This document shows, piece by piece, positions 3,076 to 30,761 of a DNA stretch of 64,000 nt. The notes under the pieces were generated by a model. The model was not told the origin of the DNA. It worked only from the letters and a program-made list of their open reading frames with translations, and made no database searches. The translations under genes were made by a program, and so were the position numbers. Every line of letters begins with the position of its first letter. Within the stretch, counting starts at the first letter, position 1. Origin of the DNA: Gordonia crocea (GTDB lineage: Bacteria; Actinomycetota; Actinomycetes; Mycobacteriales; Mycobacteriaceae); NCBI RefSeq assembly GCF_009932435.1, contig NZ_BJOU01000001.1, forward strand, positions 1 through 64,000, read 5' to 3'.

Positions 3076-3086
3076 GGGGAAACGGC
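3076..3086 (+). promoter_or_regulatory. GGGGAAACGGC motif, copy 1
   Basis: An 11-base motif 30 bases before the start of the PaaK-like gene. It is identical to copies at 7118-7128, 30516-30526 (minus) and 30745-30755, all upstream of genes. This copy continues with CTG rather than TAG. Likely a regulator site or promoter-spacer element. Confidence 0.6.
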
Positions 3087-3116
3087 CTGTCCTCCACGCC
3101 GATTGAAGGAGGCACC

Positions 3117-4505
3117 GTGAAACCAGGACTCGAACGAGCCGTCGACATCGCCAACCGGGCACTGCGCCACGTGCCCGCGTACCGGGACTTCACCGGTGGC
3201 CGGGGCCCGGTCACCGCCGCGGGGTTTGGTTCGCTGCCGCCGACCGGCAAGGTCGACTACTTGCAGCGCTACCGCGTCGCCGACCTGGTGTGGCACGGCG
3301 ACCCGAGCACGGCCGGCACCTGGTCGGCCACCTCGGGGTCGACCGGCGCGCCGACCTACTTCCCCCGCGATGCCCTCGCCGGAGCCGATGCGGCCTCGGC
3401 GTACGACCGGATCTTCCGGGCTTTCGGCGCGCACCACCGCAGCACCCTGGTGGTGGTGTGCTTCGCGATGGGCTCCTGGATCGGCGGCACCTACACCTAC
3501 CTGGCCGCCCTCGAGCTCAAGCGGCGCGGCCTCCGGATCTCGGTGGCGACGCCCGGGATCGACGCCGACGCGGCCGTCGACGTCCTCACCACACTCGGGC
3601 CGCACTACGACCAGGTCGTCCTGACCGGTTATCCGCCCTTCGTCAAGGACGTCCTCGACCAAGCGGCGCCCGAAGCGCTCGCCCAACAGATCCGCATCTT
3701 GCTGGCCGGCGAAGCGATCACCGAGCCGTGGCGCGACCATCTCCTGCGGCGCATCGGGGCGCCGGGCCAGACCGACCGCATCTGTCTCATCTACGGCACC
3801 GCCGAGGCCGGCGTCATGGGCCACGAGACCCCACTCACGACGGACATCCGGCGCGCCGCCGTCGCCGATCCGGCACTGGACCGCCTCCTGTTCGGCGAAG
3901 CGGGTTCGCGCACATCGACTTTCGTCGAGTTCGACCCGCAGGCACGCTTCACCGAATCCGTCGACGGGTTCCTCCTGTTCACCTGCGACTCCTCGGCGAT
4001 GCCGTTGATCCGCTACCGCATCAACGACGTCGGCACCGTCGTCGACGGGCCCGCGCTCCGCGACCTCCTCCACGAGACGGGTCACCACGGCCTCGCCGCG
4101 CAGGTTCCCCCGTCGGGCGGATTCCTCACCCTCGCCGGGCGCCCCGACGTCGCCGAGACCTTCTACTCGCTCAACATCTATCCCGCGGATCTGCGCGAGA
4201 CCTTCGACGACCCGCGCTTCGCCGACGACGTCACCGGGAAGTTCGTGGTCGAGGCCCGGCACGACGACCAGCACGACCAACAGCTGACGATCACCGCGGA
4301 ACTCTCCACCGCGGCCGGCCTCGGCGACGCGATCGTCCATGCCCTGACCACCGCCTGCACCGAGGCGTTGAGCCGCAACAACCGCGAGTACCGCGCGCTG
4401 CGGGCCAGCATCGGCGATCGCGCCACTCCCCGGGTCAGGCTGTGCCCCAGGGGTTCCGGACCGTTCGCCCCCGCCACCAAACACCGCTACACCGGGAGGT
4501 CCTGA
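3117..4505 (+). CDS. PaaK-like adenylate-forming enzyme
   Basis: 462 residues, GTG start with an AGGAGG site at 3107-3112. It carries the ANL-superfamily AMP-binding loop as SATSGSTGAPTYF (about residues 69-81), the YGTAEAG motif (~227) and an RYRIND hinge-type motif (~303). The length and loop resemble phenylacetate-CoA ligase (PaaK), which makes an acyl-AMP and then a thioester. The acid substrate cannot be read from sequence. The stop overlaps the next start (TGATG), so it is coupled to a ThiF/E1-like adenylating enzyme. Two unrelated carboxylate-activating enzymes in one operon suggest activation of a small molecule or peptide tail rather than aromatic degradation; no paa genes are nearby. 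Regulated, probably, by the motif at 3076. Confidence 0.8.
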   Translation: MKPGLERAVDIANRALRHVPAYRDFTGGRGPVTAAGFGSLPPTGKVDYLQRYRVADLVWHGDPSTAGTWSATSGSTGAPTYFPRDALAGADAASAYDRIFRAFGAHHRSTLVVVCFAMGSWIGGTYTYLAALELKRRGLRISVATPGIDADAAVDVLTTLGPHYDQVVLTGYPPFVKDVLDQAAPEALAQQIRILLAGEAITEPWRDHLLRRIGAPGQTDRICLIYGTAEAGVMGHETPLTTDIRRAAVADPALDRLLFGEAGSRTSTFVEFDPQARFTESVDGFLLFTCDSSAMPLIRYRINDVGTVVDGPALRDLLHETGHHGLAAQVPPSGGFLTLAGRPDVAETFYSLNIYPADLRETFDDPRFADDVTGKFVVEARHDDQHDQQLTITAELSTAAGLGDAIVHALTTACTEALSRNNREYRALRASIGDRATPRVRLCPRGSGPFAPATKHRYTGRS

Positions 4506-5524
4506 TGATCGAGATCCTGCACCCCGTCGACGACCGCGCACGCATCGATCAGCTGGCGTCGACCCTGACCACCGTCGACGCCTGGGACGACGCCCTCGAC
4601 GAGTTGGGCGCCCTCAACCGTTTCGACCATCAGGCGCCGCCGATTCCGCCGGACCTCGACGAGATCAGCCGCTATGTCCACTACCCGTGGCGCGGCGTGC
4701 TCGTCCGGCTGCCGGATTCGCCGACGTTCCTGCGGATGCGCACCGCCCGCAACCGGCTTCTGATCACCGACGACGAGCAGGCGGTCTGGTCGTCGTCGCT
4801 CATCGCCGTCGCCGGCCTCAGCGTCGGGGCCGCCCTGCTGCACACCTGCTCGATGACCGGGGCGCGCCGGTTCCACGTCGCCGACCCCGACGTCCTCGGC
4901 CTGACCAACCTCAACCGGTTGGCCGGATCGGTCTGCGACCTGGGTGTGTCCAAAGCCGTTCTCGCGCAGCGCCGCATACTCGAGACCGACCCCTACAGCG
5001 ACGTCACCCCGTTCCCCGACGGATTCACCGCCGACGCGGCGTCGGGGTTTCTCGGGGCGCCCGAACCGGTCGGCGTCGTCCTCGAAGAAGTCGACGATCT
5101 GGCGGCCAAGGTCGAGATCCGACGCCGGGCGCGGGAACGCGGAATCCCCGTCGTGATGGTCACCGACGACGGCGACGGGGTGATCGTCGACGTCGAGCGC
5201 TACGACCTCGAACCGGACTACCCGTTGTTCCACGGGCGCGCCGACGGCATCGAGCGCCTGGGCGCCGACGAGCTGCGCGACCCGCAACGGCGGATCGCCC
5301 TGGTGACGGCGATCGTCGGCGACGACATCGGGGAACGGACCCGGGCCGCGCTGGGTCAGGTGGGCCGCACGATCCCCACGTGGCCGCAGTTGGGCACCGC
5401 GTCGACGCTGGCGGGCGCCGCGGGGGCCGCGGTGGCCCGGGCCGTCGTCTGCGGTGTGCCCGTCCCGTCCGGGCGGCGGTCGATCCGCCTCGATGACCTG
5501 TCGGCCGCGTCGTTAGGCGGGTAG
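4505..5524 (+). CDS. ThiF/MoeB/E1-like adenylyltransferase
   Basis: 339 residues. The Rossmann nucleotide loop is AGLSVGAALL (about residues 102-111), followed by FHVADPDVLGLTNLNRL (119-135), the acidic and TNLNR motif typical of E1-like enzymes. There are no CxxC zinc pairs, unlike ThiF and MoeB. The family adenylates the C-terminal carboxylate of small beta-grasp proteins or peptides. No ubiquitin-like protein gene is visible nearby, so the substrate may be a small molecule or be encoded elsewhere. The start ATG overlaps the PaaK-like stop. The 3' end overlaps the convergent response-regulator gene by 12 bases. Confidence 0.8.
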   Translation: MIEILHPVDDRARIDQLASTLTTVDAWDDALDELGALNRFDHQAPPIPPDLDEISRYVHYPWRGVLVRLPDSPTFLRMRTARNRLLITDDEQAVWSSSLIAVAGLSVGAALLHTCSMTGARRFHVADPDVLGLTNLNRLAGSVCDLGVSKAVLAQRRILETDPYSDVTPFPDGFTADAASGFLGAPEPVGVVLEEVDDLAAKVEIRRRARERGIPVVMVTDDGDGVIVDVERYDLEPDYPLFHGRADGIERLGADELRDPQRRIALVTAIVGDDIGERTRAALGQVGRTIPTWPQLGTASTLAGAAGAAVARAVVCGVPVPSGRRSIRLDDLSAASLGG

Positions 5525-6250
5525 CGGCGCCAGCACGTCCTCGTGGCCGTTACGCCGGCACCAGCTGACGATGTAGCGGGCATGCAGTCCGCACCAGCGG
5601 TACACCGCGGCCTGGGTGAGCGGCAGCCGGTCGTCGTGCTCGCGGCGGGCCAGCATGATCGGCCCCAGATAGTTGGGGGCCACTTTGCTGGCGGTGTTCG
5701 CCGAGACCTTTGCCGCCGTCGCCAGGGAGGCGTTGTCCACCGCCGCCCCCGAGGCGATCGCCCCGGCCAACCGCCCGGCTGTCGTCCCCCGCCGGCTGCT
5801 GAAGTGCTCGTAGAGCGACGGCCGATTGTCGAGTTGCCCGGTGTAGCGCACGCCCTGGCCGAAGGCCACCGCCCGCAGCGCCTCGATCAACGTCTGCAAA
5901 CCGTCGGATTTGGACACCACACCGGCGATGTCGGTGCGCGCCACCGCCTCGGCGAGGAGGTCGGCCTCGATGGAGGTCCCCTGCCGGGCCAGCAGGACCG
6001 GGGCGGTCCGCTTGGTCCGGATCAGCATCTCGATCACGTCGAGCCCGTCGAAGGTCCACTCGTGCGCCGGGTGGTTGAACACCAGGTCCGCGGAAACCAC
6101 GTCGAACCGGACGCGCGCGGCGATGGCGTCGGCGACGGCGTCGCGATCATGGGCCACCACGACGTGCGCCCCCGCGAACGCGGTCCGCAACGGCGCCGCC
6201 ACGACGTCGCCCAATGGTGACGCGATGAGTATCCGCAAACCCGAATCCAT
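5513..6250 (-). CDS. Response-regulator-like DNA-binding protein
   Basis: 245 residues. The N-terminal ~120 residues look like a receiver domain: LRILIAS at the start, VVSADLVF with the probable acceptor aspartate, and VVSKSDG with the conserved lysine. The rest includes a helix-turn-helix-like stretch (LATAAKVSANTASKVAPNYL) and a C-terminal Trp/Cys-rich tail. It is not a standard NarL/LuxR C-terminus. No sensor kinase is adjacent. It is divergent from the broken LuxR-type gene and convergent with the ThiF-like gene, so it is a candidate local regulator. The ATG at 6250 was chosen because the receiver strand begins at once. A perfect 7+7 palindrome lies 33 bases upstream. Confidence 0.65.
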   Translation of the reverse strand: MDSGLRILIASPLGDVVAAPLRTAFAGAHVVVAHDRDAVADAIAARVRFDVVSADLVFNHPAHEWTFDGLDVIEMLIRTKRTAPVLLARQGTSIEADLLAEAVARTDIAGVVSKSDGLQTLIEALRAVAFGQGVRYTGQLDNRPSLYEHFSSRRGTTAGRLAGAIASGAAVDNASLATAAKVSANTASKVAPNYLGPIMLARREHDDRLPLTQAAVYRWCGLHARYIVSWCRRNGHEDVLAPLPA

Positions 6251-6430: not shown

Positions 6431-7036
6431 GTGACCGCCTCCCCCGTCGACACGCTGTCCGCCTTGAACCTGGGCCCCCGGTTTGACGCCGAAGTCGCCA
6501 TCATCTGCGAGGGCGATCTGACCGACACCGTCCTCGATTCCTTCATCGAGGGCTCCGGCCTCAGCACCCGACTGGTCGACCTCGACCACGACGAGCGGCC
6601 CTACCCCACGGTCCGCGCCGTCGTGGTCCGCACCGCGGGCAAGGTGATGCGCGTGCAGTGGATCCGCGAATTCTCCGGCGCCACGATCATCGCGATCGGC
6701 GCCCACGACCCGCAGCACGGCGTGGTGGTCCTGCCCGACTCCCCGCACGGGGCGCGGCGCCTGCGTTAGATCCTGCTCGAGGACCTGCGCGACGAACCCA
6801 CCCACGCCCCAGTCCACCTCAGCGACCGCGAGCGCGAGGTCATCGTGACCTACACGCTGGGGACCACCGTCCGCGACACCGCCCGTCAGCACTTCATCAC
6901 CGAGAACACCGTGCGCTCCCACTTTCGCCGGGTGATGCGGCGCTACCGCGATGCCGGCCGACCGGTGACCAACAAGTCCCAACTCTTGATCCAACTGATC
7001 GCCGACGGCTGGGTCGCCCCCGACCAGCTCAAGTGA
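6431..7036 (+). pseudogene. LuxR-type regulator interrupted by in-frame amber codon
   Basis: Read from the GTG at 6431, the frame gives 112 residues, a TAG at 6767-6769, and then continues in the same frame to 7036 with a complete LuxR-type helix-turn-helix (LSDREREVIV, TENTVRSHFRRVM). The full 202-codon frame matches the 206-residue regulator at 29849-30469 in length and layout, including NKSQLL(I) and ADGW near the end. It is therefore a paralogue with one nonsense codon. Options are a true pseudogene, a sequencing error, or restart at the GTG at 6845, which lacks a good ribosome site. The HTH half still looks intact. Confidence 0.75.
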
Positions 7037-7117: not shown

Positions 7118-7128
7118 GGGGAAACGGC
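7118..7128 (+). promoter_or_regulatory. GGGGAAACGGC motif, copy 2
   Basis: Lies 99 bases before the start of the four-gene CHAT operon. It is followed directly by TAGAAA, a possible -10 element. The 15-base core TGGGGAAACGGCTAG is identical to the copy at 30744-30758. Confidence 0.6.
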
Positions 7129-7227
7129 TAGAAACCAGACGTCGACCGCGGCGCTCGACGGTCGGCTGCGAGACTGGATCGACGAGCAGCGCCGCAAGGC
7201 CGATCCACGACGGGAGGAGTGCGCCAG

Positions 7228-8541
7228 ATGGAACGACTCGTGCCGCCCGTCGTCGACGCGGAACCGCCGCAGTCGGTGGTCGTCGAGATCCCGAACGAGG
7301 GAATCGGGCGCAACGCCCTCCTGCGCGCCTACAAGGACGCGATGGTGCGTCCGGTCCCCGACGGCAAGTCGCTCGACCACGCACTCAAGGCCTGGTCCGG
7401 GATCCTCGGGGCGGCGCCCTGGTTCCGCGCGGCCCAGCCGACCACGGCACTGGCGTTGCGCAGCCCGGTGGTGCGATCGGACGAACCGACCTTCCGCGAA
7501 GCCCTCGCAGCGGTGACGGCGTTCGTCGATCCACTGAGCCGCTATTCCGCCGGCTGGTGCGACAGCCTGAAACCGCTGCGGTGGAACACCTTCCAGCGCC
7601 CGCTGTCCGACGCGGTCCACGAGGCCCGACGCTACGGCGCCCGCCGCGTGCACGACGACATGGCGGCGCGGGAACGTGCGATGACTGACCAACCCGCGGT
7701 GCAGGAGTCCGAGGAATCCCTGCGCGCCTTTCTGCGCGACCCGAGCGTCCGCCACGCCCGCGACGAACAGATCGCCCTGAACGGCTTCGCGACCAAGATC
7801 GCCGAGCTGGTCGACCTCGGCGGTACCCGGACGATGCGGCTCACCGACGAGGAACGCGACCTGCTCATCGAGTGGGAGGAGCGCCTCGTCGACGACTTCG
7901 ACGCCGCACCCACCCGCGTCCCCACCGAGGAGGAGCTCGACCGGTACCACCGTGTCGCGGTCGCCTTCCTCGAACGCGCCTTCGCCGAGGCCGATATCGA
8001 CGGTTTCACCCACGACGACGTCAACGAGGCCTTCCGCCGCCTGGTGGTCTCCGCCGTCAACCGGCAGATCATCGACCGCCCGCTCGACGGACTCGAACGC
8101 GCCATCCGCCCGCGGATCCGGGCAGTGGCCGCCGACGACGCCCGGAAACGGCACCGGCAGCGCGAGACCGCGTTCATCGCGGGCGACGACCCCACCGCCG
8201 GCGGTGCGCACGACCGGTTCGACGCCCTGCCGGAGGGGGCCGAACGCGCCGCCGACATCGTCGCCATCGCCGCGGCCCTCATCGAACGCGATCCGGCCCT
8301 CCTCCTCGACGGGCGGCCGTGTTGGGAGGCGCACACCGCGCACACCCTGCTCACCCAACCCCACCTCGCTGCCGACTCGCCCCAACGGTTCGTCCTGGAC
8401 GCGTGGTCGTCGGGCGTGCCTCCTCACGCGCGATCGGCCTCCGCGCCGGCCGCCGCGATGGACGTGCTGCTGATCATGCGCACCGCAGTCGCCCGCGCCA
8501 CCCTTGAGGCCGACGGCATCGACGAGGGGCAACGCGCATGA
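7228..8541 (+). CDS. Uncharacterised protein, first gene of CHAT operon
   Basis: 437 residues from the ATG at 7228, which sits 9 bases after a GGAGG site; the upstream in-frame GTG at 7219 is too close to that site. No membrane segment or known catalytic motif was recognised. The sequence is largely helical and charged, with acidic stretches around residues 205-235 and a region near residues 270-320 rich in Arg/Asp (ADDARKRHRQRETAF). I do not recognise a family. Its stop overlaps the next start (ATGA), and the operon ends with a CHAT peptidase and a TPR protein, so it may be a substrate, sensor or regulatory subunit. Confidence 0.75.
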   Translation: MERLVPPVVDAEPPQSVVVEIPNEGIGRNALLRAYKDAMVRPVPDGKSLDHALKAWSGILGAAPWFRAAQPTTALALRSPVVRSDEPTFREALAAVTAFVDPLSRYSAGWCDSLKPLRWNTFQRPLSDAVHEARRYGARRVHDDMAARERAMTDQPAVQESEESLRAFLRDPSVRHARDEQIALNGFATKIAELVDLGGTRTMRLTDEERDLLIEWEERLVDDFDAAPTRVPTEEELDRYHRVAVAFLERAFAEADIDGFTHDDVNEAFRRLVVSAVNRQIIDRPLDGLERAIRPRIRAVAADDARKRHRQRETAFIAGDDPTAGGAHDRFDALPEGAERAADIVAIAAALIERDPALLLDGRPCWEAHTAHTLLTQPHLAADSPQRFVLDAWSSGVPPHARSASAPAAAMDVLLIMRTAVARATLEADGIDEGQRA

Positions 8542-9869
8542 GTGGCATCGTTCATCACCACGCCGACGGCAGCATCTCCGTGCGAGCCGATACCGGGATC
8601 GCCGTCGTGCCGGTCACCGTCGGCGACGATGCGGTTCGGGTCACGGTCGACGCCGCCTTCCCCGACCGGGTCGTCGACCTCGCCGCGGCGTCGCCGGAGG
8701 CGCTACGCACCCGGGCCGCGCGGTTCCGCGACGGGGATTCGGTCCGCCGGATTGCCGCGGCCGCCGACGGCGAGGTCGTCGACGCGCCGGTGCTGGCCGA
8801 TGCCTGGGCCCGGATCGCGACGGTCGCCGCGGTCGACGCCGTTCACCTCGGCCCCCTCGACGACGCGGTCGTGCACCTCGACACCGCCCACGCCCGGGCG
8901 TTGGCCGGGGATCCCGATGCCGACCGGTACTACGCCTTCGGCGCCGCCGTCGTCGACCGCCTCGTCGACGAACTGCGTGCGGCGCGGGCCCACGGTCCGG
9001 TCGTCGCGCGCACCGCCGAAGCCGTCGAAGCCGCCTCGGCGGCGGTCTTCCGGCCGGGCCGCCGCGCGGCACTGCTGCGCGCACTGGCCGATGCCGACGA
9101 CGTCACCGATCGGGCCTGGCGGTCGTTGTCCGCCGATGTGGCCGATCCGTCGCCGACGCTGGCCCTGTCGTTGAACCGGGCGGTCACCGTCGACGCCGGC
9201 CTCGCCGACCTTGCGCCGCTGCGACCGCGGCTCCTGCGTTTTGACGGCCCCGACGAGCCCGAGATCTCGGTGCGCCACCTCGGCGACGGCACCGTCGTCC
9301 TCGCGGCGGCACTGCGCAACGGCGTCGACGAAACGACCGAGCAGGCGGCCGGGATCTTCGCGGTGGTGGCGGACGCGCGCAGCGGCGAACCGGTGGCCCA
9401 TGCGCCGGCCGTGCTGGCGGACGGACAGATCCGTGCCCGGGTCGCACTCAACGGCGCCGACCCTCACTCGATCCGATGCGCGTTCCTCGATTCGACGGCC
9501 AACCTGGACGCGCTGCGGTTGGATCCGACGGGCATCGCGCTGACCCGCATCGACCGCTACTGCCGCTATGCCTGGAGCCAGCACCGCCTCGCCGGCGCCC
9601 TGCGCGCCGCACTCGGCGCGGGAAACACCGCCGCCGAGATCGACCGGGCCCAGGCAGCCGCCGACACGGCACTGTCGATCGCCGTCGATGCCGCCGACAC
9701 CGCACTCGGACTGGTCCGGCAGTTGCGTCGCAAACGGCGCGACACCACCGATCTGGCCCACCGCGCGGCGGCGTTGAACCGTTTCCGCGACGTGTGTGCT
9801 GCCCCGCCCGCCGTGGCCGGTCCCACCGGACCGACGCTGGCCGAGCTGTGCTCGGTCGCCCTGGGGTGA
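8538..9869 (+). CDS. Uncharacterised protein, second gene of CHAT operon
   Basis: 443 residues, no signal peptide. The first ~60 residues are beta-rich (SISVRADTGIAVVPVTVGDDAVRV). The middle and C-terminal parts are Ala-rich helices, ending in a likely coiled coil (about residues 350-420, ALRAALGAGNTAAEIDRAQAAA). Two central beta segments (EISVRHLGDGTVVLAAAL, AGIFAVVADARSG) could form a sandwich domain. No family was recognised. It is coupled by 4-base overlaps to both neighbours, so fixed stoichiometry with the CHAT protein is likely. Confidence 0.75.
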   Translation: MSGIVHHHADGSISVRADTGIAVVPVTVGDDAVRVTVDAAFPDRVVDLAAASPEALRTRAARFRDGDSVRRIAAAADGEVVDAPVLADAWARIATVAAVDAVHLGPLDDAVVHLDTAHARALAGDPDADRYYAFGAAVVDRLVDELRAARAHGPVVARTAEAVEAASAAVFRPGRRAALLRALADADDVTDRAWRSLSADVADPSPTLALSLNRAVTVDAGLADLAPLRPRLLRFDGPDEPEISVRHLGDGTVVLAAALRNGVDETTEQAAGIFAVVADARSGEPVAHAPAVLADGQIRARVALNGADPHSIRCAFLDSTANLDALRLDPTGIALTRIDRYCRYAWSQHRLAGALRAALGAGNTAAEIDRAQAAADTALSIAVDAADTALGLVRQLRRKRRDTTDLAHRAAALNRFRDVCAAPPAVAGPTGPTLAELCSVALG

Positions 9870-11167
9870 GTGCCGTGGGCGACTCGGTCCTGCTCGTCCG
9901 CGCCGTCGACGCCGGCCCGACCTACGTGTCCTACCGGTGGCTCGACGACCCGTCCAATCCGACGGTCCACTCGATCGACCGGCAGCTGCTCACCGAACTC
10001 GGGGCCCGGCTGGACGCCGCCCTCGTCGATCCGCGCGCCATCGACGACCCGGTCCACCAGGTACAGCGGGCGCTGCTGGGACCGCTGTCGCGGGCCGACG
10101 CCGAGCACGATCTGAGCCGCGCGGTCACCGCCGCCGTCCTGCCGGGCCAGCTCACCGCCGAGATCGATCGACGGGCCCGGCGCGGGACGGTCCGCATCCG
10201 GGTCACCCCGAGCCCGTCGCTGGCCCGCGTCCCGTTCGGCCTCTTGGTCGTCGGGGAGGATCGGCGGCTCTTGGAGGTCGCCGAAATCTGCTACGAGCCG
10301 CCCGCCGCGATCCACTCCGGACGGGGGCGCATGCCCGAGCCGTGGACCGACGAGGTCGCGGCCCGCCCGGTCTTGTCGGTGATCGACCCGAAACTTCCCC
10401 CGGGATCGGGGCTCTCGCGCATCCTCGGCCCGGTCGCCCGGTCCGCCAATGCCCGGCTGCTCGCCGACCGGGTCGCGGCCGGCCCGCACACCCCGTCGTC
10501 GGGGGTCGGGCGGATTGTCGGGCGCTGGGAGTTGAGCGACGACCTGCGCACCCGCCCGGGCCGCCTGTTCTACCTCGGCCACGTCTCCTCGACGCTGGCC
10601 ATCCCCGGATCGGCGTCGGTCCACCTTTCCGACGACGCCGACACGTGGGGGCTGGCCCGCCCCCTCAACGAGGCCCATGTACCGCTGTCGGCGCTCGACC
10701 TGCTCGTCGGGACGTCCGCGCCCGAGTACGGCCCCGACGGGGACGGCCCACCCGCGCCCCACCGGCCCGGGCACGAACTGTGGCCGATGCCGCCGCGCGT
10801 CGCGTTGATCGCGTGCGAGGGCGGTGCCGACTACCGCAGCTTGGAGACGTTCGGCCTGGTGATGGCCATCTTCAGCGCTGGCGCCGAGGTGGTGACCACG
10901 ACCCAGTGGGCCTTGCCGTCCGACGAGGCGTTCCGCCGGTTGGCCGGGGTGGACGCGGTGCCCGGCCCCACGACCGCGCTGGCCCTCGCCGTCGACGACA
11001 CGCATCGGGCCGCCGATCCGGTCGCCGCGCTGGCCCGCTGGCAGCGCCAGCGGCTGCACGCCTGGCGGGCCGATCCGGGTCCGGCCAACTCCCCGCTGAC
11101 CTGGGCGTCGGTGACCTGCCACGTGTGCCCGCCCCGCGCGGTCCACCCGACGCCGAGACTACCCTGA
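9866..11167 (+). CDS. CHAT-domain (caspase-like) peptidase
   Basis: 433 residues from the GTG at 9866 (GTGA overlap; a second GTG at 9875 is possible). The C-terminal half carries the two CHAT hallmarks: YLGH with catalytic His239, and LIACEGG with catalytic Cys317, at the spacing usual for caspase-HetF-associated-with-TPR peptidases. Residues 1-160 form a mixed alpha/beta N-terminal region typical of CHAT proteins. The family cleaves partner proteins on activation in several bacterial conflict systems. The next gene encodes a TPR protein, the classic partner. The two upstream unknown proteins are candidate substrates or sensors. Confidence 0.85.
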   Translation: MSAVGDSVLLVRAVDAGPTYVSYRWLDDPSNPTVHSIDRQLLTELGARLDAALVDPRAIDDPVHQVQRALLGPLSRADAEHDLSRAVTAAVLPGQLTAEIDRRARRGTVRIRVTPSPSLARVPFGLLVVGEDRRLLEVAEICYEPPAAIHSGRGRMPEPWTDEVAARPVLSVIDPKLPPGSGLSRILGPVARSANARLLADRVAAGPHTPSSGVGRIVGRWELSDDLRTRPGRLFYLGHVSSTLAIPGSASVHLSDDADTWGLARPLNEAHVPLSALDLLVGTSAPEYGPDGDGPPAPHRPGHELWPMPPRVALIACEGGADYRSLETFGLVMAIFSAGAEVVTTTQWALPSDEAFRRLAGVDAVPGPTTALALAVDDTHRAADPVAALARWQRQRLHAWRADPGPANSPLTWASVTCHVCPPRAVHPTPRLP

Positions 11168-12654
11168 TGGCCGTGCCCGACGCCCAGTTCATCGACCCGG
11201 AATTCGCCGCCTGGTCGCGCGAGTTCGAGCGGCGGTCCCTGCGCGTCCGGGATGCCCAGCAGGCCGATGAGCCCCGCGAGCTCGCCGCGGCCCAGGTCGC
11301 GCTCGCCGACCACCTCGCCGGCCACGCCGACCCCACGGTCGTCGTCGGCGTGCTCCGCGACGCCCGACGGGCCTACCGTCGATTCGACCCGCGCCAGGCG
11401 GCCCGGTGCCTCGTCGACATTGCGGCGCTCATGGCCGCCGACGGGGATCACGACTACGCCTACCGCGCCTACCGCCAGGCCGCCGGGGAGTTCACCGGCC
11501 CCGACGCTGCCGAACTGCGGGCCGACTGCCTGACCGATGCCGGTGCCATGGCGCTGGAATGCGGCGAGTTCGACGACGCCGAACGCGCCGTCCGCGACGC
11601 CATCCGGATCTATCACCGCCGCCACCACACGTTCGGAGCAGCCCAGGCACGGATCACGCTGGCCAACGTCTACCGACTCTCCGGGCGTCGGGCGTTGGCC
11701 GTGCAGGAGTTCGGGTCGCTGCTGTCGATCTTCGCCGACGGCTCGGTGGAGCACGCCCTGTGCGAGGCGTCGCTGGCCGAACTCCACGTCGACGACGGCG
11801 AGCCGTGGACGGCGCGGCCCCTGTACGAGCGGGCCGCGGCAACGCTGGGCGCCATGGGGGTGGTCGAGGAGGCGCTCGACGCCCAGCTCGGTTTGGCCTG
11901 GGTGCTCGTCGCGACCGGTGACGGCGAGCGCGGCGCCGAGCTGTTGGCGCAGGTGCGCCACGAGTTCGAGTCCATGGACCGGCCCGACAAGGTCGCGATC
12001 TGCGACTACGTCCGCGCCGCGCACCTGCTGACCAGCGGAGACTTCGCCGGCGCCGATGCGGCTTTCGACACCGCCGCGGCCGGCCTGATGGCCGCCGACA
12101 TGCACCACCAACTCGCCAAACTGCAGTGGAACCGGGTCACCCGCCTGCTCCGCGAGGCCGATGCGGTCCCCGCCAACCAGGAGCGACTCGTCGCGGAAGC
12201 CGTCGACACCGCGGTGTCGGCGTTGATCGCCGCGGACTACGAGCGCTTCCAGTTCACCGATGCCCGACGTCGGGCCGCGTGGACGACGATGCTCGAGCAC
12301 CGCACCACGACGACGTTCTGGCTGGTCGAGCAGCTCGGGTCGCCCGGCTTGCTCGCCGACCTCATCGAGACCCGGCTCAGCGCCGGCGTCTACGGCGCCG
12401 ACATCCGCGACGACCACCTGCCGCACGTGGACGGGTCGACCTCGTCGCGGTCGCCGATTCCCGACGACGGGCTGGCCTTGACCCTCGGGGCCGCCGCCCT
12501 GCTGGCGACCGATGCACTGCCGCTGGGACCGCCCCCCGCGCTCGTCGACGACACCGGCCGGGTCCTCCTGGCCCATCAGCGCGCGATGGCCGCCGCCCTC
12601 GACCCGGAACTGGGCGACGTGCTGTCCTCGGTTCCACGCGTCTCGGCTTGGTGA
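11167..12654 (+). CDS. TPR-repeat protein paired with CHAT peptidase
   Basis: 495 residues, start overlapping the CHAT stop (TGATG). Residues ~35-330 are helical pairs with TPR-like spacing and small residues at the turn positions, for example CLTDAGAMALECGEFDDAER and ARITLANVYRLSGRRALAVQ. The last ~120 residues form a separate Ala/Leu-rich region. TPR proteins bind peptides and commonly scaffold or restrain CHAT peptidases. No enzyme motif is seen. It closes the four-gene operon; the next gene is convergent. Confidence 0.8.
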   Translation: MAVPDAQFIDPEFAAWSREFERRSLRVRDAQQADEPRELAAAQVALADHLAGHADPTVVVGVLRDARRAYRRFDPRQAARCLVDIAALMAADGDHDYAYRAYRQAAGEFTGPDAAELRADCLTDAGAMALECGEFDDAERAVRDAIRIYHRRHHTFGAAQARITLANVYRLSGRRALAVQEFGSLLSIFADGSVEHALCEASLAELHVDDGEPWTARPLYERAAATLGAMGVVEEALDAQLGLAWVLVATGDGERGAELLAQVRHEFESMDRPDKVAICDYVRAAHLLTSGDFAGADAAFDTAAAGLMAADMHHQLAKLQWNRVTRLLREADAVPANQERLVAEAVDTAVSALIAADYERFQFTDARRRAAWTTMLEHRTTTTFWLVEQLGSPGLLADLIETRLSAGVYGADIRDDHLPHVDGSTSSRSPIPDDGLALTLGAAALLATDALPLGPPPALVDDTGRVLLAHQRAMAAALDPELGDVLSSVPRVSAW

Positions 12655-17056: not shown

Positions 17057-17058
17057 GT

Positions 17059-19250: not shown

Positions 19251-20347
19251 TGTACTTCCCCGACACGTTGTGAACATCTGAGGTAAGACGAAGACCTCCG
19301 GGCAGGATGTGGGTTACCACACTCACCATCTAGCCACGGAGGTCTTCGTGACTCACGCTAACGCACCTTTGACGCCGGAGGGGCGTCGACGTCTTGCTTC
19401 ACTCGTGGTGGACCAGGGCTGGTCACTGCGGCGCGCTGCCGAACGGTTCCAGTGTTCACCGGCCACAGCCAAGCGGTGGGCCGACCGCTACCGCGCCGGC
19501 CAGGTGCTGACCGACCGCAGTTCCCGACCCGCCCGTTCACCGGCCCGGCTGCCCCGCCGCACCGAACGGCGGATCATCTGCCTGCGGTACACGCGCCGGT
19601 GGGGCCCGCATCGGATCGCCTATCACCTGGGTATCCCGCGTTCGACGGTCGGCCGGGTCCTCGACCGCTATCAGATGCCGCTGCTGGCCAATATCGACCA
19701 GGCCACCGGACTGCCGGTACGCAGACCGAAACCGAAACGGTACGAGGTCGGCCGGCCCGGCCAGCTCGTGCACGTCGACATCAAGAAACAAGGCCGAATC
19801 CCCGACGGCGGCGGCTGGCGTGTGCATGGTCGCGGATCGGCCGCCGACCGTACCGCCGGTGTGGCCCGCGACCGGGCAGCACGCTCGGGAGCACCGGGCT
19901 CGCGTGGCTACCGCTACCTACACCACGCCGTCGATGACCACTCCCGGGTGGCGTACTCGGAGATCCTTGATGACGAACGCAAGGAGACCGCGGCCGGCTT
20001 CTGGCGGCGGGCGAACGCGTTCTTCGCCGAGCACGGCGTGAGGGTGACCGCAGTGATGACCGACAACGGCTCCTGCTACCGCTCAACGATGTTCGCCGAA
20101 GCACTGGCCGACGCCGGGATCAAACACAAGAAGACCAAGCCCTACCGGCCACAGACGAACGGGAAGGTCGAACGCTTCAACCGGACCCTGGCCGCCGAAT
20201 GGGCCTACGCGAAACCCTATGCCAGCGAAGCCGAACGAGAAGCCGCCTACACCGCATGGCTCCACCACTACAATCACCACCGACCCCACACCGGGATCGG
20301 CGGCCAAGTCCCCTCAGACCGCGTACACAACCTCACGGGGAAGTACA
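19251..20347 (+). mobile_element. IS481-family insertion sequence, complete
   Basis: 1097 bases, bounded by inverted repeats that begin TGTACTTCCCCG: left end 19251-19275, right end 20323-20347, 21 of 25 positions matching. It is flanked by the 6-base duplication GCTAGC and carries one transposase gene. All parts are intact, so the insertion is probably recent and may still be mobile. The target CTAG is the stop codon region of the kinase gene at 20349. Confidence 0.9.
19288..19349 (+). promoter_or_regulatory. Hairpin masking the transposase ribosome site
   Basis: A perfect 13-base inverted repeat, ACGAAGACCTCCG at 19288-19300 and its complement at 19337-19349. The right arm contains the CGGAGG ribosome site and the first two bases of the GTG start. 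A transcript entering from outside the element would fold and hide the start, a known way for insertion sequences to limit transposase made from read-through. Confidence 0.7.
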
Positions 20348-20352
20348 GCTAG
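19348..20352 (+). CDS. IS481-family transposase
   Basis: 334 residues from the GTG at 19348, with CGGAGG 5 bases upstream. N-terminal helix-turn-helix (SLRRAAERFQCSPATAKRWADRY) followed by an rve integrase domain: first Asp in AVDDHSR, second in MTDNGSC, and the glutamate in NGKVERFNRTL. The last codons read TAC AGC TAG, and the TAG lies in the target duplication, so the stop codon is supplied by the insertion site. Cuts and joins the element's ends during transposition. Confidence 0.9.
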   Translation: MTHANAPLTPEGRRRLASLVVDQGWSLRRAAERFQCSPATAKRWADRYRAGQVLTDRSSRPARSPARLPRRTERRIICLRYTRRWGPHRIAYHLGIPRSTVGRVLDRYQMPLLANIDQATGLPVRRPKPKRYEVGRPGQLVHVDIKKQGRIPDGGGWRVHGRGSAADRTAGVARDRAARSGAPGSRGYRYLHHAVDDHSRVAYSEILDDERKETAAGFWRRANAFFAEHGVRVTAVMTDNGSCYRSTMFAEALADAGIKHKKTKPYRPQTNGKVERFNRTLAAEWAYAKPYASEAEREAAYTAWLHHYNHHRPHTGIGGQVPSDRVHNLTGKYS

Positions 20353-20353
20353 C
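20348..20353. repeat. Target duplication GCTAGC, right copy
   Basis: Right copy of the duplication. Its CTAG gives the TAG stop codon of the transposase on the plus strand and of the kinase on the minus strand. Confidence 0.85.
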
Positions 20354-22148
20354 CACGGATTTCCCGGAACCAGTCGACCTCGGCCGCCCCCGGATGGGCG
20401 TCGATGTTGCCGCGCAGCGCGGTGACCACCTGCTCGGCCGCACCGGCCTTCGCCGCGAGTGCCGGGCCGTAGACCAGACGTGCGAGGACCCGCTTCTCCG
20501 TGGTGCCACGGTCGGCGTCAAAACCACCGCCGCCGGTGAGCCGCTGGAGCTGGCCGTTGTCTCGGATCATCTTCTCGCTGGCCGCCGCGACCCCGTGCGC
20601 ATCGGCATCCACCGCGGCGAACCCCGGCCGCTGCGGACTCTCCAACGCGCCGATCAACCCGGTGCCGTGCAACTCGGCGACGACCTCGGCCGCGACGTCG
20701 TCGGTGGTCGCGGCAACGCCGAGACGCGCCAGATCGGCGCGGCCGTTCAACGCGAACCCGCGGTAGACGAGCTGTTGCTCCGGCGCGATCTGCGCCAAGA
20801 AATACACGGCCCGCAAATGCGGCGGCCACGAGTTCTGGTACCGCGAGAACGGCCATGCTTCGGCGCCGAACTCCGCCTGCACCCATCGGATGAACTGTTC
20901 GGCGCCCTGGCCGCTGAGGCTGCCGGCGAATCCGACGGGGTCCGCCGTCGCGGCCACGCCGATCTCGTCGAGGGTGTAGAGGCTGCCCGATCCGGGAAAG
21001 GCGTACGGGTCGCGGGCCCGGGTCTTCGGCTGGCCGTCGGCCCCGCCGGAATCCGGTTGCAGCGCTTCGCCGTCCACCGTCGGCGAACCGCCGTCGATCC
21101 ATGTCATGACCTCGCCGAACCCCCAGCGCCGGGCGGGGGCGCGGGTCAACAGCCCGGTCAACAGCAGCTTCCACCGGACGCGCTCCGACTCGCTCATCCA
21201 GTCGACGCCGTCGAGTGCGTCCAGCGAGATGCTCTCGGTTTGCAGGTTGTATTCGATGGTCGTGTCGCTGAACCGCCGGCCGTCGGGGGTGGTGAAGTAG
21301 TCGCGGCCCACCAACACGCGGAACATGATCATGCCCACGCTCCACCAGTCGGCCTCCAACGAGGACTGCACCAACGCGCCGGGTGCACTATAGGCCAGCG
21401 TCCCCTTGCCGTTGTTGGTGACCCGCGAGCGGTTGGTCATCGCGACGCTGATCCCGAAGTCGGTGAGGACGATGTCGAACGGGGCGACGGTGCGGACGAG
21501 CACGTTCTCCGGTTTGATGTCGCCGTGCACCAGCCGTACCCCGCGGTCCGGTTCCTGGATCGCGTGGAGCGCGGTGGCGATCTCGTGCAGCACCGACAAC
21601 CCCTGGGTGTGGTTGGCGACGCGCCCGTCCGGGCGGCTGTCGAGGAAGTCGACCAGGGTGCCCGGCGCGCAGTACTCCATGACGTCGTAGTGGCGGCCGT
21701 CGGGATCCTTGGCGCGCCGGTAGACGACGACGGCGTGCTCATAGGGGAACTGGGCGGCGAACTCGTGGGTGGCGAACGGAATGGCGAACTCGGGCTCGTA
21801 GCCGTGCGAGTACACCTTGACCGCAAAGTGCTCGCCCTGCTCGATCAGCCCGGTGTTGTCTACGCAGAGATACACCGTCCCCTCCCCGCCCTGTCCCAGC
21901 GTGCGGATCGGGGTCAGGTGTGGGTCGAGGGCCGACGGCAGCACGGTGACCCGGGTGTTCGGCGCGCCACCGGCGGTGGCGCCGAAGGCGTTGTCGAGCC
22001 GGGTCCCGGGCGCCGAATCGGCGAACGCGTCCAACCGGGTGCCGGCCGGCGCTCCGTCGAGGCTGGTGGGCGCCGGTTGCGCGGCACCGTCGAGCCGGGT
22101 CGACCGGGGCTCGTCGCCGGTGTTGTCCAGTCGCGTCGGATCGGTCAT
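20349..22148 (-). CDS. Ser/Thr protein kinase with N-terminal TxxD repeat tail
   Basis: 599 residues. Residues 1-55 carry five T-x-L-D motifs (Thr5, 17, 28, 37, 49) in a disordered Ala/Gly/Pro region. The kinase domain follows: glycine loop GQGGEGTV (85-92), Lys111, HGD (208-210) with Asn215, and DFG (230-232), so it is probably active. The C-terminal ~220 residues are helical and unassigned. No membrane segment, unlike PknB-type kinases. pT-x-x-D is a classical FHA-binding pattern, and an FHA gene lies two genes upstream. It is the last gene of the operon; the stop codon is TAG inside the IS target duplication. Confidence 0.88.
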   Translation of the reverse strand: MTDPTRLDNTGDEPRSTRLDGAAQPAPTSLDGAPAGTRLDAFADSAPGTRLDNAFGATAGGAPNTRVTVLPSALDPHLTPIRTLGQGGEGTVYLCVDNTGLIEQGEHFAVKVYSHGYEPEFAIPFATHEFAAQFPYEHAVVVYRRAKDPDGRHYDVMEYCAPGTLVDFLDSRPDGRVANHTQGLSVLHEIATALHAIQEPDRGVRLVHGDIKPENVLVRTVAPFDIVLTDFGISVAMTNRSRVTNNGKGTLAYSAPGALVQSSLEADWWSVGMIMFRVLVGRDYFTTPDGRRFSDTTIEYNLQTESISLDALDGVDWMSESERVRWKLLLTGLLTRAPARRWGFGEVMTWIDGGSPTVDGEALQPDSGGADGQPKTRARDPYAFPGSGSLYTLDEIGVAATADPVGFAGSLSGQGAEQFIRWVQAEFGAEAWPFSRYQNSWPPHLRAVYFLAQIAPEQQLVYRGFALNGRADLARLGVAATTDDVAAEVVAELHGTGLIGALESPQRPGFAAVDADAHGVAAASEKMIRDNGQLQRLTGGGGFDADRGTTEKRVLARLVYGPALAAKAGAAEQVVTALRGNIDAHPGAAEVDWFREIRG

Positions 22149-22924
22149 CGCGAGAACCCTTCTGTCAGCGGCCCGGCGGGCGGTTGCGGAGTGCGTCGGG
22201 GCGGGGCGAGGCGCAGGTGGACGGCGGTCGCGTTGTCGCCGCCGCCCCCGGCCAACGCCAACTCGACCAGCCGGTCGGGCACCGAGCGCGGCGAGTCGGT
22301 CCGGGTCAGCTCCGCTTTGACGGCGGCGTCGTCGACGTAGTCGGCGATGCCGTCGGAGCACAGCACGATGCCCGCCTCGTCGACGACGGTGTCGTAGGCC
22401 GCCGGCTCGAGGACGCAGCGTTGACCGCCGCCCAGCGTCTGCGTCAGATTGCCGGTCTGGGCGGATCGGTGGTCGATGGTCAGTTGCGCCAAGAACCCCG
22501 ACTCCATGCGGTAGGCCCGGGCGTCGCCGACGTTGACGATCAGCACCTCGCCGCCGGGCGCGATGTACGCGCCGACGACCGTCGTCCCCAGCCCGCGGTA
22601 CTCGGCCGACGTTTCGGAGATCGTGTTGATCTCGTCGGAGGCCTGTTGCAGCAGCGCGGCGGCCGAGGCCCGGTCGAGGGCGGTCGCGTCGTCGACGGTG
22701 GTGCACCGTTGGGCCGCCAGCACACTGGCCCGCTCGCCGCCGGCGTGTCCGCCCATCCCGTCGCAGACCGCGATCGCCTGCGGGCGGTCGAGCGGCAGCG
22801 TCAGGTAGAGGGTTCGCGCCTTGTCGCCCTGCAGGGCGAATCCGTTGATGCCGACGGCATCCTCGTTGTATTCGCGCACCAGCCCGGTGTGCGAGGCGAC
22901 GGCCACCCACAGCGATCGGATCAC
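22145..22924 (-). CDS. PP2C-type Ser/Thr phosphatase
   Basis: 259 residues, GTG start overlapping the FHA stop (GTGA). Complete PPM core: VREYNEDA near the start, VCDGMGGHAGGE with the metal aspartate, VGDARAY, LCSDGIADYV, and GGGGDNATAV at the end. It resembles PstP/PppA-type phosphatases that reverse Hanks-type kinases. The kinase gene follows with a 4-base overlap, so the pair is co-made. Confidence 0.88.
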   Translation of the reverse strand: MIRSLWVAVASHTGLVREYNEDAVGINGFALQGDKARTLYLTLPLDRPQAIAVCDGMGGHAGGERASVLAAQRCTTVDDATALDRASAAALLQQASDEINTISETSAEYRGLGTTVVGAYIAPGGEVLIVNVGDARAYRMESGFLAQLTIDHRSAQTGNLTQTLGGGQRCVLEPAAYDTVVDEAGIVLCSDGIADYVDDAAVKAELTRTDSPRSVPDRLVELALAGGGGDNATAVHLRLAPPRRTPQPPAGPLTEGFSR

Positions 22925-23466
22925 GGTGTCCCCCAATCCAATCCGAGGGGTACGTCGGCGGCCAGGCGCAGCGCCTGCCCGGGGTGGACCTCGTACTCCG
23001 CCCCCGACTCGATCCGGGTGCCGTTGACGAACGTGCCGTTGGACGACCCGAGGTCGGTGACATACACGCGCCCGCCCGCGTAGCGCAGCGCCGCATGGAT
23101 GCGCGAGACGTTGTCGAACCCACTCTCGGGGGCGAACAGATCCGCATGCGGATAGTCGGGGCTGCGGCCCAGGCCGACGGTCTCCCCGTCGGCGATCGTG
23201 ATCGTCCGGGACCCGACGGTCAATCGCAGCGGAGCCACCACCGCCGCCGGCTCGGGCACGGGTGCGGGTGCGGGGGTCGGCGACACGACCTCGGTGACCG
23301 GTTCGCCCTTGCGGAGCGAGACCCGGCCACCCGGGGCCGCCGGGGCCGCCGGGGCCGGGTCGGGCGCCGGCCCGGCGTCGACAATCCAGTCCGAACCGCA
23401 TTCGCGGCACTGCGGGGTCAGCTGCGGGTCGCCGGTGTGGCCGCGTTTGCACTGGGCGCTACTCAT
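22921..23466 (-). CDS. FHA-domain protein with N-terminal zinc ribbon-like cysteines
   Basis: 181 residues. The N-terminus has Cys6, His10, Cys20 and Cys23 in a short zinc-binding pattern. Residues ~30-80 are Pro/Ala-rich. The FHA domain is at the C-terminus: VGLGRSP, VSRIHAAL and LGSSNGTFVNG contain the phosphothreonine-binding Arg, Ser and Asn. It should read phosphothreonine, most simply the TxxD sites on the neighbouring kinase tail. It overlaps the radical SAM stop by 4 bases and the phosphatase start by 4 bases. Confidence 0.88.
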   Translation of the reverse strand: MSSAQCKRGHTGDPQLTPQCRECGSDWIVDAGPAPDPAPAAPAAPGGRVSLRKGEPVTEVVSPTPAPAPVPEPAAVVAPLRLTVGSRTITIADGETVGLGRSPDYPHADLFAPESGFDNVSRIHAALRYAGGRVYVTDLGSSNGTFVNGTRIESGAEYEVHPGQALRLAADVPLGLDWGTP

Positions 23467-24116
23467 GTCAGCCACGACCTCCGACCCAGGGTGATCCCGT
23501 CGGCCGCCAGGGCGGTCTCGAGTTCGGCCAAGTCTCCCGGCCGCGGGATGCCGACCATCCAGATACTGTCGTCGTCGACGTGCAGGCCGATCGTGTCGCG
23601 CTGGTGCGCCAGGTCGGCGTCGACGCGGCCGTACCGCCGCCGGCCCAGCGCCGTCATCGGCGTGACCACCTGGTTCGACGAGCCGCGCAGCGCCAGCGTC
23701 GCGTCGACGCGGTCGGCGAGGAACGGCTCGCTGATGACGACGTCGGCCAGGCCCGCCAACCCCGGGACGAGTTCGACCGCTTCGGCCAGCGATCGGCCCG
23801 TGTAGACGAGGACGTCGAGGTCGTCGCGCCGTCCGCGCAACCGGTCGATCCCGGCGAGCAGCTCGTGCAGGGCCGCCGGCTGATCGGTGGGCTCGCCACC
23901 GGAGATCGTGACGCCGTGCGCCGACGGCAGGTCGGCCGCAATCCGGTCGAGGACGGCGTCCACCTCCACCGCGTCGTCGGGCCGGGCGGGCCAGGTGTCG
24001 CGGGAGACGCACCCGCGGCAGTGCACGGTGCAGCCCTGCACCCAGACACCGATCCGCGTCCCGTGACCGAGGTTGGTCACCGGGAAGTGGATGCGCGACA
24101 AGTCGATCCGGGTCAT
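23463..24116 (-). CDS. Radical SAM, NrdG/activase-like 4Fe-4S protein
   Basis: 217 residues. CTVHCRGC places Cys29, Cys33 and Cys36 as the CxxxCxxC cluster ligands, followed by the ISGGEP SAM-binding motif (about 70-75). The length and the VWVQGCTVHCRGC context resemble the activating enzymes for glycyl-radical proteins (NrdG, PflA). No glycyl-radical enzyme gene is in the window. Its place between an AAA+ ATPase and an FHA protein, with 4-base overlaps on both sides, suggests it modifies or senses for that complex rather than activating a reductase. Confidence 0.8.
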   Translation of the reverse strand: MTRIDLSRIHFPVTNLGHGTRIGVWVQGCTVHCRGCVSRDTWPARPDDAVEVDAVLDRIAADLPSAHGVTISGGEPTDQPAALHELLAGIDRLRGRRDDLDVLVYTGRSLAEAVELVPGLAGLADVVISEPFLADRVDATLALRGSSNQVVTPMTALGRRRYGRVDADLAHQRDTIGLHVDDDSIWMVGIPRPGDLAELETALAADGITLGRRSWLT

Positions 24117-28408: not shown

Positions 28409-28448
28409 CCCGTGACCGATCCACACAATAGAAGGGTGGGAGATCTCC

Positions 28449-29706: not shown

Positions 29707-29709
29707 CCA

Positions 29710-29731
29710 AGCCCGGCCGGTTCGCCGGGCT
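29710..29731. terminator. Hairpin between convergent permease and regulator genes
   Basis: AGCCCGGC-CGGTTC-GCCGGGCT, a perfect 8-base stem starting 4 bases after the permease stop. No run of T follows. Plausible terminator for the permease transcript. Confidence 0.45.
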
Positions 29732-29848
29732 CGAGCACCAATCCTGGCGCACCTACGAGCACGTCTCGGCGAGGCGTATCGGCGTACCGGGGTCGTCATC
29801 GACCCGTACGAGTCGAGCCCGCCGGAGGACCTTCCGCCCGTCCGGTGA

Positions 29849-30469
29849 TCACGCACCGGAGGGGCGGACCGGACCGGTCTGCGCCCCCGGCAACGTGATC
29901 CAACCGTCGGCGACCATCTGCAACAGCAGCTGCGCCTTGTTCTGCGCCGGCCGTCCGGCCGCCTCGTATTTGGCCGCTACCCGCCGCTTGTGCGACTTCA
30001 CGGTCGCCTCCGCGAGCGTGAACCGCTGAGCGGTTTCGGCGATCGTCGCGCCCAGCACGTACTCGGTGACGACTTCGCGCTCGCGGTGGGACAGGTGGAC
30101 GAGGTCGCGCCGGGTGCCGGCTGCGGGCCCGACGGCATTGTGCAGGATCCGGCCGAGTTCGCTGGCCGCCGAGGATCCGCGCAACAGGTGGGTGCGCCCC
30201 ACCCGCCGCGACGACTGTCCGGACGGGATGAGGACGACGAGTGGGACCGGCCGACCGGGCAGGTCCCGCGCGACCCGCGCCGCCATGAGTTCGTCGCGCA
30301 CGATGACCACTCGCGGACGCTGGTCGGCAACGCCGTTCAGCGGGACGAGATCGGCGCGGTAGCCGCATTTCTCGACCAGTGCGGCGGCGGCGCAATCGAA
30401 TGCCGATCCATCCGTGACGACGACCACGGGTGCTGCCGGGGTCGCGGTCCAATCGAGCGCTTCACTCAT
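29849..30469 (-). CDS. LuxR-type transcriptional regulator
   Basis: 206 residues, ATG at 30469 with an AGGAGGA site 6 bases upstream. The N-terminal ~125 residues form a Rossmann-like, receiver-like domain (VVVVTDGSAFDC, VVIVRDELM) without a full set of phosphoacceptor residues. The C-terminus is a LuxR helix-turn-helix: LSHREREVV, TIAETAQRFTLAEATVKSHKRRV. It is a paralogue of the broken regulator at 6431. A GGGGAAACGGC motif lies 46 bases before its start, so it may control itself and the other genes with this motif. Confidence 0.85.
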   Translation of the reverse strand: MSEALDWTATPAAPVVVVTDGSAFDCAAAALVEKCGYRADLVPLNGVADQRPRVVIVRDELMAARVARDLPGRPVPLVVLIPSGQSSRRVGRTHLLRGSSAASELGRILHNAVGPAAGTRRDLVHLSHREREVVTEYVLGATIAETAQRFTLAEATVKSHKRRVAAKYEAAGRPAQNKAQLLLQMVADGWITLPGAQTGPVRPSGA

Positions 30470-30515
30470 GGGGTTCCTCCTGTGGTTTCAGCGGCGGGCA
30501 TACCGGTACCCGGAA

Positions 30516-30526
30516 GCCGTTTCCCC
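30516..30526 (-). promoter_or_regulatory. GGGGAAACGGC motif, copy 3
   Basis: Minus-strand copy 46 bases before the LuxR regulator start. Followed by TTC rather than TAG. Suggests autoregulation. Confidence 0.55.
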
Positions 30527-30732
30527 ACACGAGTCGCCAGCGCGCGCGACGCGCGTAAGGTGATCGGTCATGCGAGGCGCTCGGAGTAGATTGCCGCGGC
30601 AAGAACATCTACTGCCATAGGAGACCCTCCCTCTCGCACCGGGATGGTCGGGTACGCGACCGGCACCCCTACCGCGACGACGCCCAACCCCAACGACTCC
30701 CCCGCCGGCCACCCCCTTGCCCGGCCGACCTC

Positions 30733-30761
30733 TTGCCCGTCGGTGGGGAAACGGCTAGTTT
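30733..30761 (+). promoter_or_regulatory. Promoter with GGGGAAACGGC motif, copy 4
   Basis: TTGCCC at 30733-30738, a 17-base spacer, and TAGTTT at 30756-30761 form a good -35/-10 pair. The motif GGGGAAACGGC (30745-30755) fills the spacer right up to the -10. This places the motif where a regulator could act on a suboptimal promoter. Confidence 0.5.

Follow-up and report, generated by a model that had tools for sequence, protein, structure and literature searches.

A recurrent gene-facing motif, a probable promoter element, in a Gordonia crocea gene cluster and its counterparts in related genera

The cluster and its motif copies

The window analyzed here corresponds to positions 1 to 64,000 of a 2.47-Mb contig of Gordonia crocea (NZ_BJOU01000001.1; genome 3.78 Mb). 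Bases 1 to about 33,000 carry a gene cluster that encodes two AAA ATPases, a TY-Chap1 protein, a PaaK-like/ThiF pair, an MSMEG_1198-family regulator, an interrupted LuxR gene, a CHAT-TPR operon, a YidC-like protein, two PP2C proteins and another PP2C-type frame, a VWA protein, a kinase, an FHA protein, a radical-SAM-type protein, a CitMHS transporter, an intact LuxR gene, a 102-residue protein and a DUF6745 protein. The window contains four copies, and no more, of the 11-mer GGGGAAACGGC, at 3076, 7118, 30516 (minus strand) and 30745, each in intergenic DNA and facing a gene, and we hold with strong confidence that this motif marks a cluster-wide regulon. The copies of its 10-base core, with the predicted transcription starts (+1) discussed below, and the genes downstream of them are as follows.

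3076..3085, plus strand: motif copy A, core GGGGAAACGG with a C in front; precedes the AMP-binding (PaaK-like)/ThiF pair; predicted +1 at 3096, pyrimidine/purine step present
3117..4505, plus strand: AMP-binding (PaaK-like) protein, 462 residues; weak assignment (Pfam AMP-binding, 21.6 bits, under the cut-off of 29.9)
4505..5524, plus strand: ThiF/E1-like protein, 339 residues (Pfam ThiF, 54.5 bits, cut-off 28.1)
7118..7127, plus strand: motif copy B; precedes the four-gene CHAT operon; expected +1 at 7138, without the pyrimidine/purine step
7228..8541, plus strand: first CHAT-operon gene; no Pfam or NCBIfam match
8538..9869, plus strand: second CHAT-operon gene; no Pfam or NCBIfam match
9866..11167, plus strand: CHAT-domain protein (Pfam CHAT, 24.7 bits, cut-off 24)
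11167..12654, plus strand: TPR/SNAP-like repeat protein (Pfam SNAP, 35.5 bits, cut-off 25)
29849..30469, minus strand: LuxR-type regulator, the proposed reader of the motif; receiver-like N-domain and GerE helix-turn-helix (Pfam GerE, 32.1 bits, cut-off 23.5)
30517..30526, minus strand: motif copy C; precedes the LuxR-type regulator; expected +1 at 30506, without the pyrimidine/purine step
30745..30754, plus strand: motif copy D; precedes the 102-residue gene; predicted +1 at 30765; same arrangement in the near relative G206
30863..31171, plus strand: 102-residue protein; no Pfam or NCBIfam match; its homolog adjoins LuxR in genome G057

The preliminary description of this DNA had reported four exact, gene-facing copies and no others by eye; our pattern search and the surrounding sequence agree with the coordinates and strands, and a search of the window with one mismatch allowed returned nothing beyond the four. 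Its statement that two copies extend to 15 identical bases was right as to the extension but not as to its length, the copies at 7118 and 30745 sharing 16 bases (GTGGGGAAACGGCTAG). As to whether four such placements are improbable, the number alone is not unusual when one mismatch is allowed (shuffle control: mean 2.63, at least four copies in 24 of 100 shuffles). Intergenic DNA makes up 4,582 of the 64,000 bases by the gene calls made in this analysis, and GGGGAAACGGC and its shifted forms are the only 11-mers in the window with more than two wholly intergenic copies. For six independent places positioned at random, the probability that at least four fall inside 27.7 kb is about 1.5e-5; these two controls are stronger than the shuffle.

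The whole genome contains nine exact copies of the 11-mer, compared with five of a reversed-pattern control. The five outside the window all lie within long open frames: four in near-identical copies of one repeated frame of 592 codons, presumably transposase-type (C1:414735, 1106071, 1176081 and 1968302), where the 11-mer is coincidental, and one overlapping a frame of 681 codons that we take to be dxs-like. Coding copies, which the preliminary description had named as a threat to its proposal if numerous, thus exist but number only five, four of them being one repeated element. The 10-mer core has 11 genomic copies, and the two additional ones (C3:248 and C19:121177) have a C before GGGG and lack the start-like step described below. 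Within this genome the motif is restricted to the cluster.

An integrase-core (rve) transposase-type gene also lies within the cluster (19309-20352, plus strand). PADLOC, applied to ten cluster proteins, returned generic kinase, ATPase and E1 matches only and no named complete system, and a literature search found no paper that joins most of the cluster's components (CHAT, LuxR, PP2C, vWA, ThiF, actinobacteria).

Conservation in Gordonia and other genera

Eight of 59 Gordonia genomes, G. crocea included, encode the first CHAT-operon protein (7228 gene). In six of the seven others (G206, G203, G211, G238, G201 and G226; the G and L numbers are our handles for genomes and loci), TGGGGAAACGG lies inside the cluster; the seventh, G220, had no motif in the 20 kb read. 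The form TGGGGAAACGGC occurs in 15 of the 59 genomes, namely G. crocea, five of the seven others with the 7228 protein and nine of the 51 without it. In those five genomes, protein gene and motif are close together on the same contig, and all 12 places of TGGGGAAACGGC outside clusters fall in open frames of 148 to 1004 codons. A counterpart of copy A stands before the PaaK-like gene in all six motif-bearing genomes (as TGGGGAAACGGA in G211), and copy B has a counterpart before the homologous gene in G206 and G238. Five sites were curated in G238 and six in G201. G206 has all four window copies plus a fifth (C86:37844) before a protein of about 700 residues; the corresponding place would fall beyond base 1 of the window, at the contig end, and no counterpart was found elsewhere in the G. 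crocea genome. Since the cluster proteins of these Gordonia genomes share just 32-59% identity, the unchanged 11-mer does not reflect background similarity.

The motif also extends beyond the genus. In its general form, GGGG[AG][AT]NCGG, it lies directly upstream of and facing cluster genes in Gordonia, Mycobacterium sp. MBM, Nocardia and Rhodococcus, each lineage having its own form (GGGGAATCGG in Mycobacterium sp. MBM, GGGGGATCGG in Nocardia and GGGGG[AT]NCGG in Rhodococcus). A scan based on the CHAT alignment yielded 28 loci. Of the five sites in Mycobacterium sp. MBM (L126), four read TGGGGAATCGG and one TGGGGAAGCGG; they stand before homologs of the CHAT-operon, PP2C and VWA genes, a membrane protein gene and a GerE gene; the copy before the CHAT-operon homolog, equivalent to copy B, reads GGGGAATCGG. 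In Nocardia, GGGGGATCGG precedes all six PaaK-like genes examined as well as two GerE genes, and Rhodococcus sp. KRD162 (L124) has seven GGGGG[AT]NCGGT sites before genes. The PaaK-like protein occurs in 37 of 401 genomes of the family. Among 30 PaaK-like loci read, which include some repeats of genomes already counted, 16 had a form of the motif (six Gordonia GGGGAAACGG, four GGGGGATCGG, one GGGGGACCGG and five GGGGGTTCGG) and 14 had none. No recognizable lineage form was seen at the loci of CHAT relatives in Williamsia, Tessaracoccus and others (L127-L138, about 30-44% identity). The motif is thus kept before orthologous genes (six of seven genus genomes, 16 of 30 PaaK-like loci), and the lack of such conservation that the preliminary description named as grounds for abandoning its regulon was not what we found.

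Five genes between the motif-bearing units have no copy of their own in the window: VWA (17059-17826), kinase (20349-22148), PP2C (22145-22924), FHA (22921-23466) and radical-SAM-type (23463-24116). In L126, by contrast, the motif does precede the homologs of two window genes, VWA and the PP2C gene at 15845-17056. A literature search for GGGGAAACGG, GGGGGATCGG, GGGGAATCGG and GGGGGTTCGG, with matches judged by title and subscription journals outside its scope, found no such promoter among the matches listed; one occurrence of a motif word was a phage gene-replacement primer.

Promoter anatomy and leader sequences

We aligned 45 curated sites from 20 stretches. They comprise all exact GGGGAAACGG sites in the window and six Gordonia stretches, minus four G206 near-duplicates and plus one GGGGAAGCGG site (G201); five of the seven GGGG[AG]A[ATG]CGG-type matches considered in Mycobacterium sp. 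MBM, 17368 and other weak ones having been dropped; from Nocardia and Rhodococcus-type genomes, the sites that precede PaaK-like and GerE genes; and seven sites in L124, which is apparently the same genome as G309. Other pattern matches that were dropped were mostly in-frame (for example, L121 15975 and 19263; L119 10150; L120 18654; window 8732, 19793 and 21114).

Beyond the motif and its two flanking bases, the outstanding feature of the alignment is a pyrimidine/purine step at offsets 19/20 from the first G, present in 37 of the 45 sites compared with an average of 11.3 for other columns. It was found in 19 of 25 Gordonia and Mycobacterium sites and, with near-duplicates removed, in 16 of 18 of the rest. 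A recount of uncurated lineage-form copies in the same 20 stretches gave 38 of 48, so the start signal holds without curation; outside clusters, five of 18 copies had the step. In four genes (G238 31516, L115 7232, L119 7181 and L124 3605), two of them related Nocardia genes, an ATG has its A exactly at offset 20, and leaderless mRNAs are described as common in mycobacteria (PMC4633059). A suitable start codon lies within 130 nt on the same strand at 41 of the 45 sites, compared with eight for the other strand. AT content is raised at bases 10, 12 and 13 past the first G (0.73, 0.67 and 0.62, vs. 0.38 in the flanks).

The boxes of a conventional promoter were not seen. None of the columns upstream of the motif holds half the information of the motif columns, and neither a conserved -35 box nor a second group of columns 16-19 bases away, as a two-box extracytoplasmic function (ECF) sigma factor promoter would have, is present in the 45 aligned sites. 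TANNNT, the sigma-A -10 pattern, does not start at offsets 6 to 10 in any of them, and only four TANNNT occur in the 45 windows altogether, whereas 500 first-order Markov sets averaged 13.5, four of them being equally low (an expectation of 29 derived from base composition overstated the depletion). The suggestion in the preliminary description that TAG in the two extended copies can start a -10 box must therefore be dropped, the base after CGG being variable besides. We also rejected the motif as a -35 box, since a -10 box placed 16-18 bases beyond it would, for the copy at 3076, run into the Shine-Dalgarno sequence. Offset 20 is likely the transcription start, judging from the aligned sites. 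The start step, the offset-20 ATGs, the AT-rich bases and the absence of TANNNT at -10 together place the motif at -20 to -11, in what would be a promoter with no conserved -35 or sigma-A -10 boxes.

Some leaders contain, in addition, an inverted repeat; in the PaaK-like leaders of Nocardia and Rhodococcus-type genomes the repeats are unrelated in sequence and share their position, between the motif and the ribosome-binding site.

30766..30786, plus strand: inverted repeat GATTCGCGC-CCA-GCGCGAATC, directly after the predicted +1 of copy D; would form a 5'-terminal hairpin in the RNA
PaaK-like leaders with inverted repeats: L115 3213, L116 14221, L117 7055, L119 3166, L120 3276, L121 11631
Further such leaders: L169 9700, L170 9541, L172 10753 (minus strand), L174 9852, L175 9517

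The copy D leader (30755-30862) folds with a z of -3.07, and the other three window leaders do not fold more than expected (z = -0.39, 0.45 and 0.81). The order of motif and then inverted repeat recurs in 11 aligned Nocardia and Rhodococcus-type PaaK-like leaders; eight folds gave z from -1.07 to -6.11.

A candidate reader, alternatives and known systems

Several regulators are encoded in the cluster. Besides the product of the 29849 gene, two others were considered.

6431..7036, plus strand: second LuxR-type regulator; match at 6488-7018, interrupted by an in-frame TAG at 6767-6769
5513..6202, minus strand: MSMEG_1198-family transcriptional regulator (NCBIfam NF052426, 354.7 bits, cut-off 300); no motif copy before the gene

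With its GerE helix-turn-helix and receiver-like N-domain, the 29849-30469 protein is, as modeled, of the NarL/FixJ type. The model has a mean predicted local distance difference test score (pLDDT) of 86.8, and its best PDB matches are FixJ, VpsT and StyR, with low template modeling scores (0.26-0.37) that reflect a different placement of the two domains. In 17 of the 20 stretches carrying the 45 sites there is a gene for a GerE protein with a common C-terminal pattern. In the three remaining genomes such a protein is encoded elsewhere (G116 and G324) or on the same contig (G309). The motif stands directly before six GerE genes (in the window, its near-copy G206, G201, L126, L115 and L119). 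G211 and G238, both motif-bearing, each have a single LuxR homolog (E <= 1e-12), of the 6431 type, so that a LuxR reader, if any, must be a subfamily and not the 29849 gene alone. This would require that the 6431 type can serve as reader; in the window the 6431 gene is interrupted and the 29849 gene intact, and in G206 the 6431-type homolog is open over its full length. From this co-occurrence we consider it plausible that the motif is read by the cluster's FixJ/NarL-like LuxR (GerE) regulator. The 5513 protein, whose family is represented in 41 of the 59 Gordonia genomes, was ruled out as a common reader, as it has no tblastn match in the motif-bearing L115-L126. A near-palindrome about 90 nt upstream of 5513 homologs (ATGCGT-AT-ACGCAT) was discarded as a second operator; the strict pattern was present in only 12 of 30 loci.

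Confinement to the cluster, conservation before homologous genes and orientation (41 of 45 vs. eight of 45) support the earlier proposal that the four promoters form one regulon. On balance, we lean toward the explanation that the motif lies at the core of a dedicated type of promoter through which a LuxR regulator co-activates several transcription units of one cluster. Transcription would begin 20 bases downstream of the first G, with the motif filling about -20 to -11; the LuxR (GerE) regulator would activate the AMP-binding/ThiF pair, the CHAT-TPR operon and the 102-residue gene and, in several genomes, its own gene. More tentatively, the promoter class may be private to the cluster, with a contiguous 10-base element at -20 to -11 replacing both the -35 and the sigma-A -10 box, its sequence drifting in concert at every promoter of a genome since the cluster encodes the reader, and promoter specificity traveling with the cluster.

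Several observations weigh against a LuxR-read promoter starting at offset 20. Only two of the four window copies have the pyrimidine/purine step, those at 7118 and 30517 lacking it. The Nocardia and Rhodococcus repeats start about 2 to 4 bases past CGG, upstream of the predicted start, and part of the repeat would be missing from an RNA that begins at offset 20, because the outer arm lies partly ahead of that offset; either these promoters have an earlier start, or there is an additional upstream start, or the motif is part of the RNA. The motif was absent from all 20 GerE loci read in six Rhodococcus-type genomes, in the stretch scanned around the starts, and GGGGAAACGG was absent from 10 Gordonia stretches chosen for a LuxR homolog. 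Among those 10, only G104 has PaaK-like/ThiF genes, none has a CHAT-operon match, and in G129 the LuxR gene is preceded by TGGAGAAACGG. The usual LuxR-family site is a dyad bound near -35, whereas this motif is a non-dyad at -20 to -11: GGGGAAACGG lacks self-complementarity, and the 45 aligned sites show no conserved mirrored columns.

The strict orientation, the fixed spacing to a start-like step, the AT-rich stretch right after the motif and the missing sigma-A box would suit a motif that serves some orphan alternative sigma factor encoded elsewhere, such as an ECF factor, as its -10-like element, with CGG[T/C] at -13 to -10 standing in for the ECF -10 box and the LuxR protein as a bystander or co-regulator. 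We think this unlikely, since no column about 16-19 bases upstream is conserved as a -35 box, the genome searches revealed none of the genes outside the cluster that such a regulon should include, the motif differs between genera, unlike most ECF promoters, and no Pfam sigma-70 region 2 was found among 30 cluster proteins scanned. Less probable still is that transcription starts upstream and that the motif acts in RNA, GGGGRANCGG and the following hairpin forming an element of the leader to which a protein or small RNA binds to control translation or decay. The hairpins right after the motif in the Nocardia and Rhodococcus PaaK-like leaders and after copy D, and the outer arms that begin ahead of the predicted start, would fit such an element; the three window leaders without excess folding would not, TANNNT boxes are not enriched upstream, and the four offset-20 ATG genes with the coincident pyrimidine/purine step would be left unexplained. 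That the copies are a chance coincidence or a functionless spreading short repeat, as the unremarkable one-mismatch count might allow, is refuted for practical purposes by their conservation before homologous genes in other genera despite differing flanks and by the lineage-specific forms, the orientation and the start signal, provided that the homologous loci are correctly annotated.

If the motif works as we propose, it joins an adenylating-enzyme/ThiF pair, a CHAT-TPR operon, a LuxR regulator and a small protein into one controlled system despite 23 kb of other genes. That system would span a genus and its relatives, and the motif could be used to find further members in unannotated genomes. 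An element at -20 to -11 with no standard boxes would, if true, be an unusual promoter architecture with a directly testable candidate reader.

ECF sigma factor promoters have GGAAC near -35 and CGTC near -10. The motif resembles them in its GGAA and CGG words and in belonging to an oriented promoter; unlike them, it holds both words in one contiguous 10-mer, with no second box conserved at 16-19 bases. The cluster resembles NarL/FixJ (LuxR, GerE) regulons such as that of DosR in having FixJ/NarL-like regulators, one motif common to the targets and, in several genomes, a regulator gene that itself bears the motif. It departs from them in that the motif is non-dyad, strictly oriented and beside the start instead of over -35. 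A third likeness is to MSMEG_1198 of Mycobacterium smegmatis, which, according to a review (PMC13355554), activates a 'BREX-like' island (MSMEG_1191-1200) affecting phage TM4 and is inhibited by the kinase StpK7. The window protein at 5513-6202 matches the family model, and genes for a protein kinase and two PP2C proteins are present in the cluster as well. The 5513 gene, however, has no motif copy before it and is missing from the motif-bearing L115-L126, and the likeness drawn here is one of regulator family; we regard it as a lead on function, possibly in stress or phage defense.

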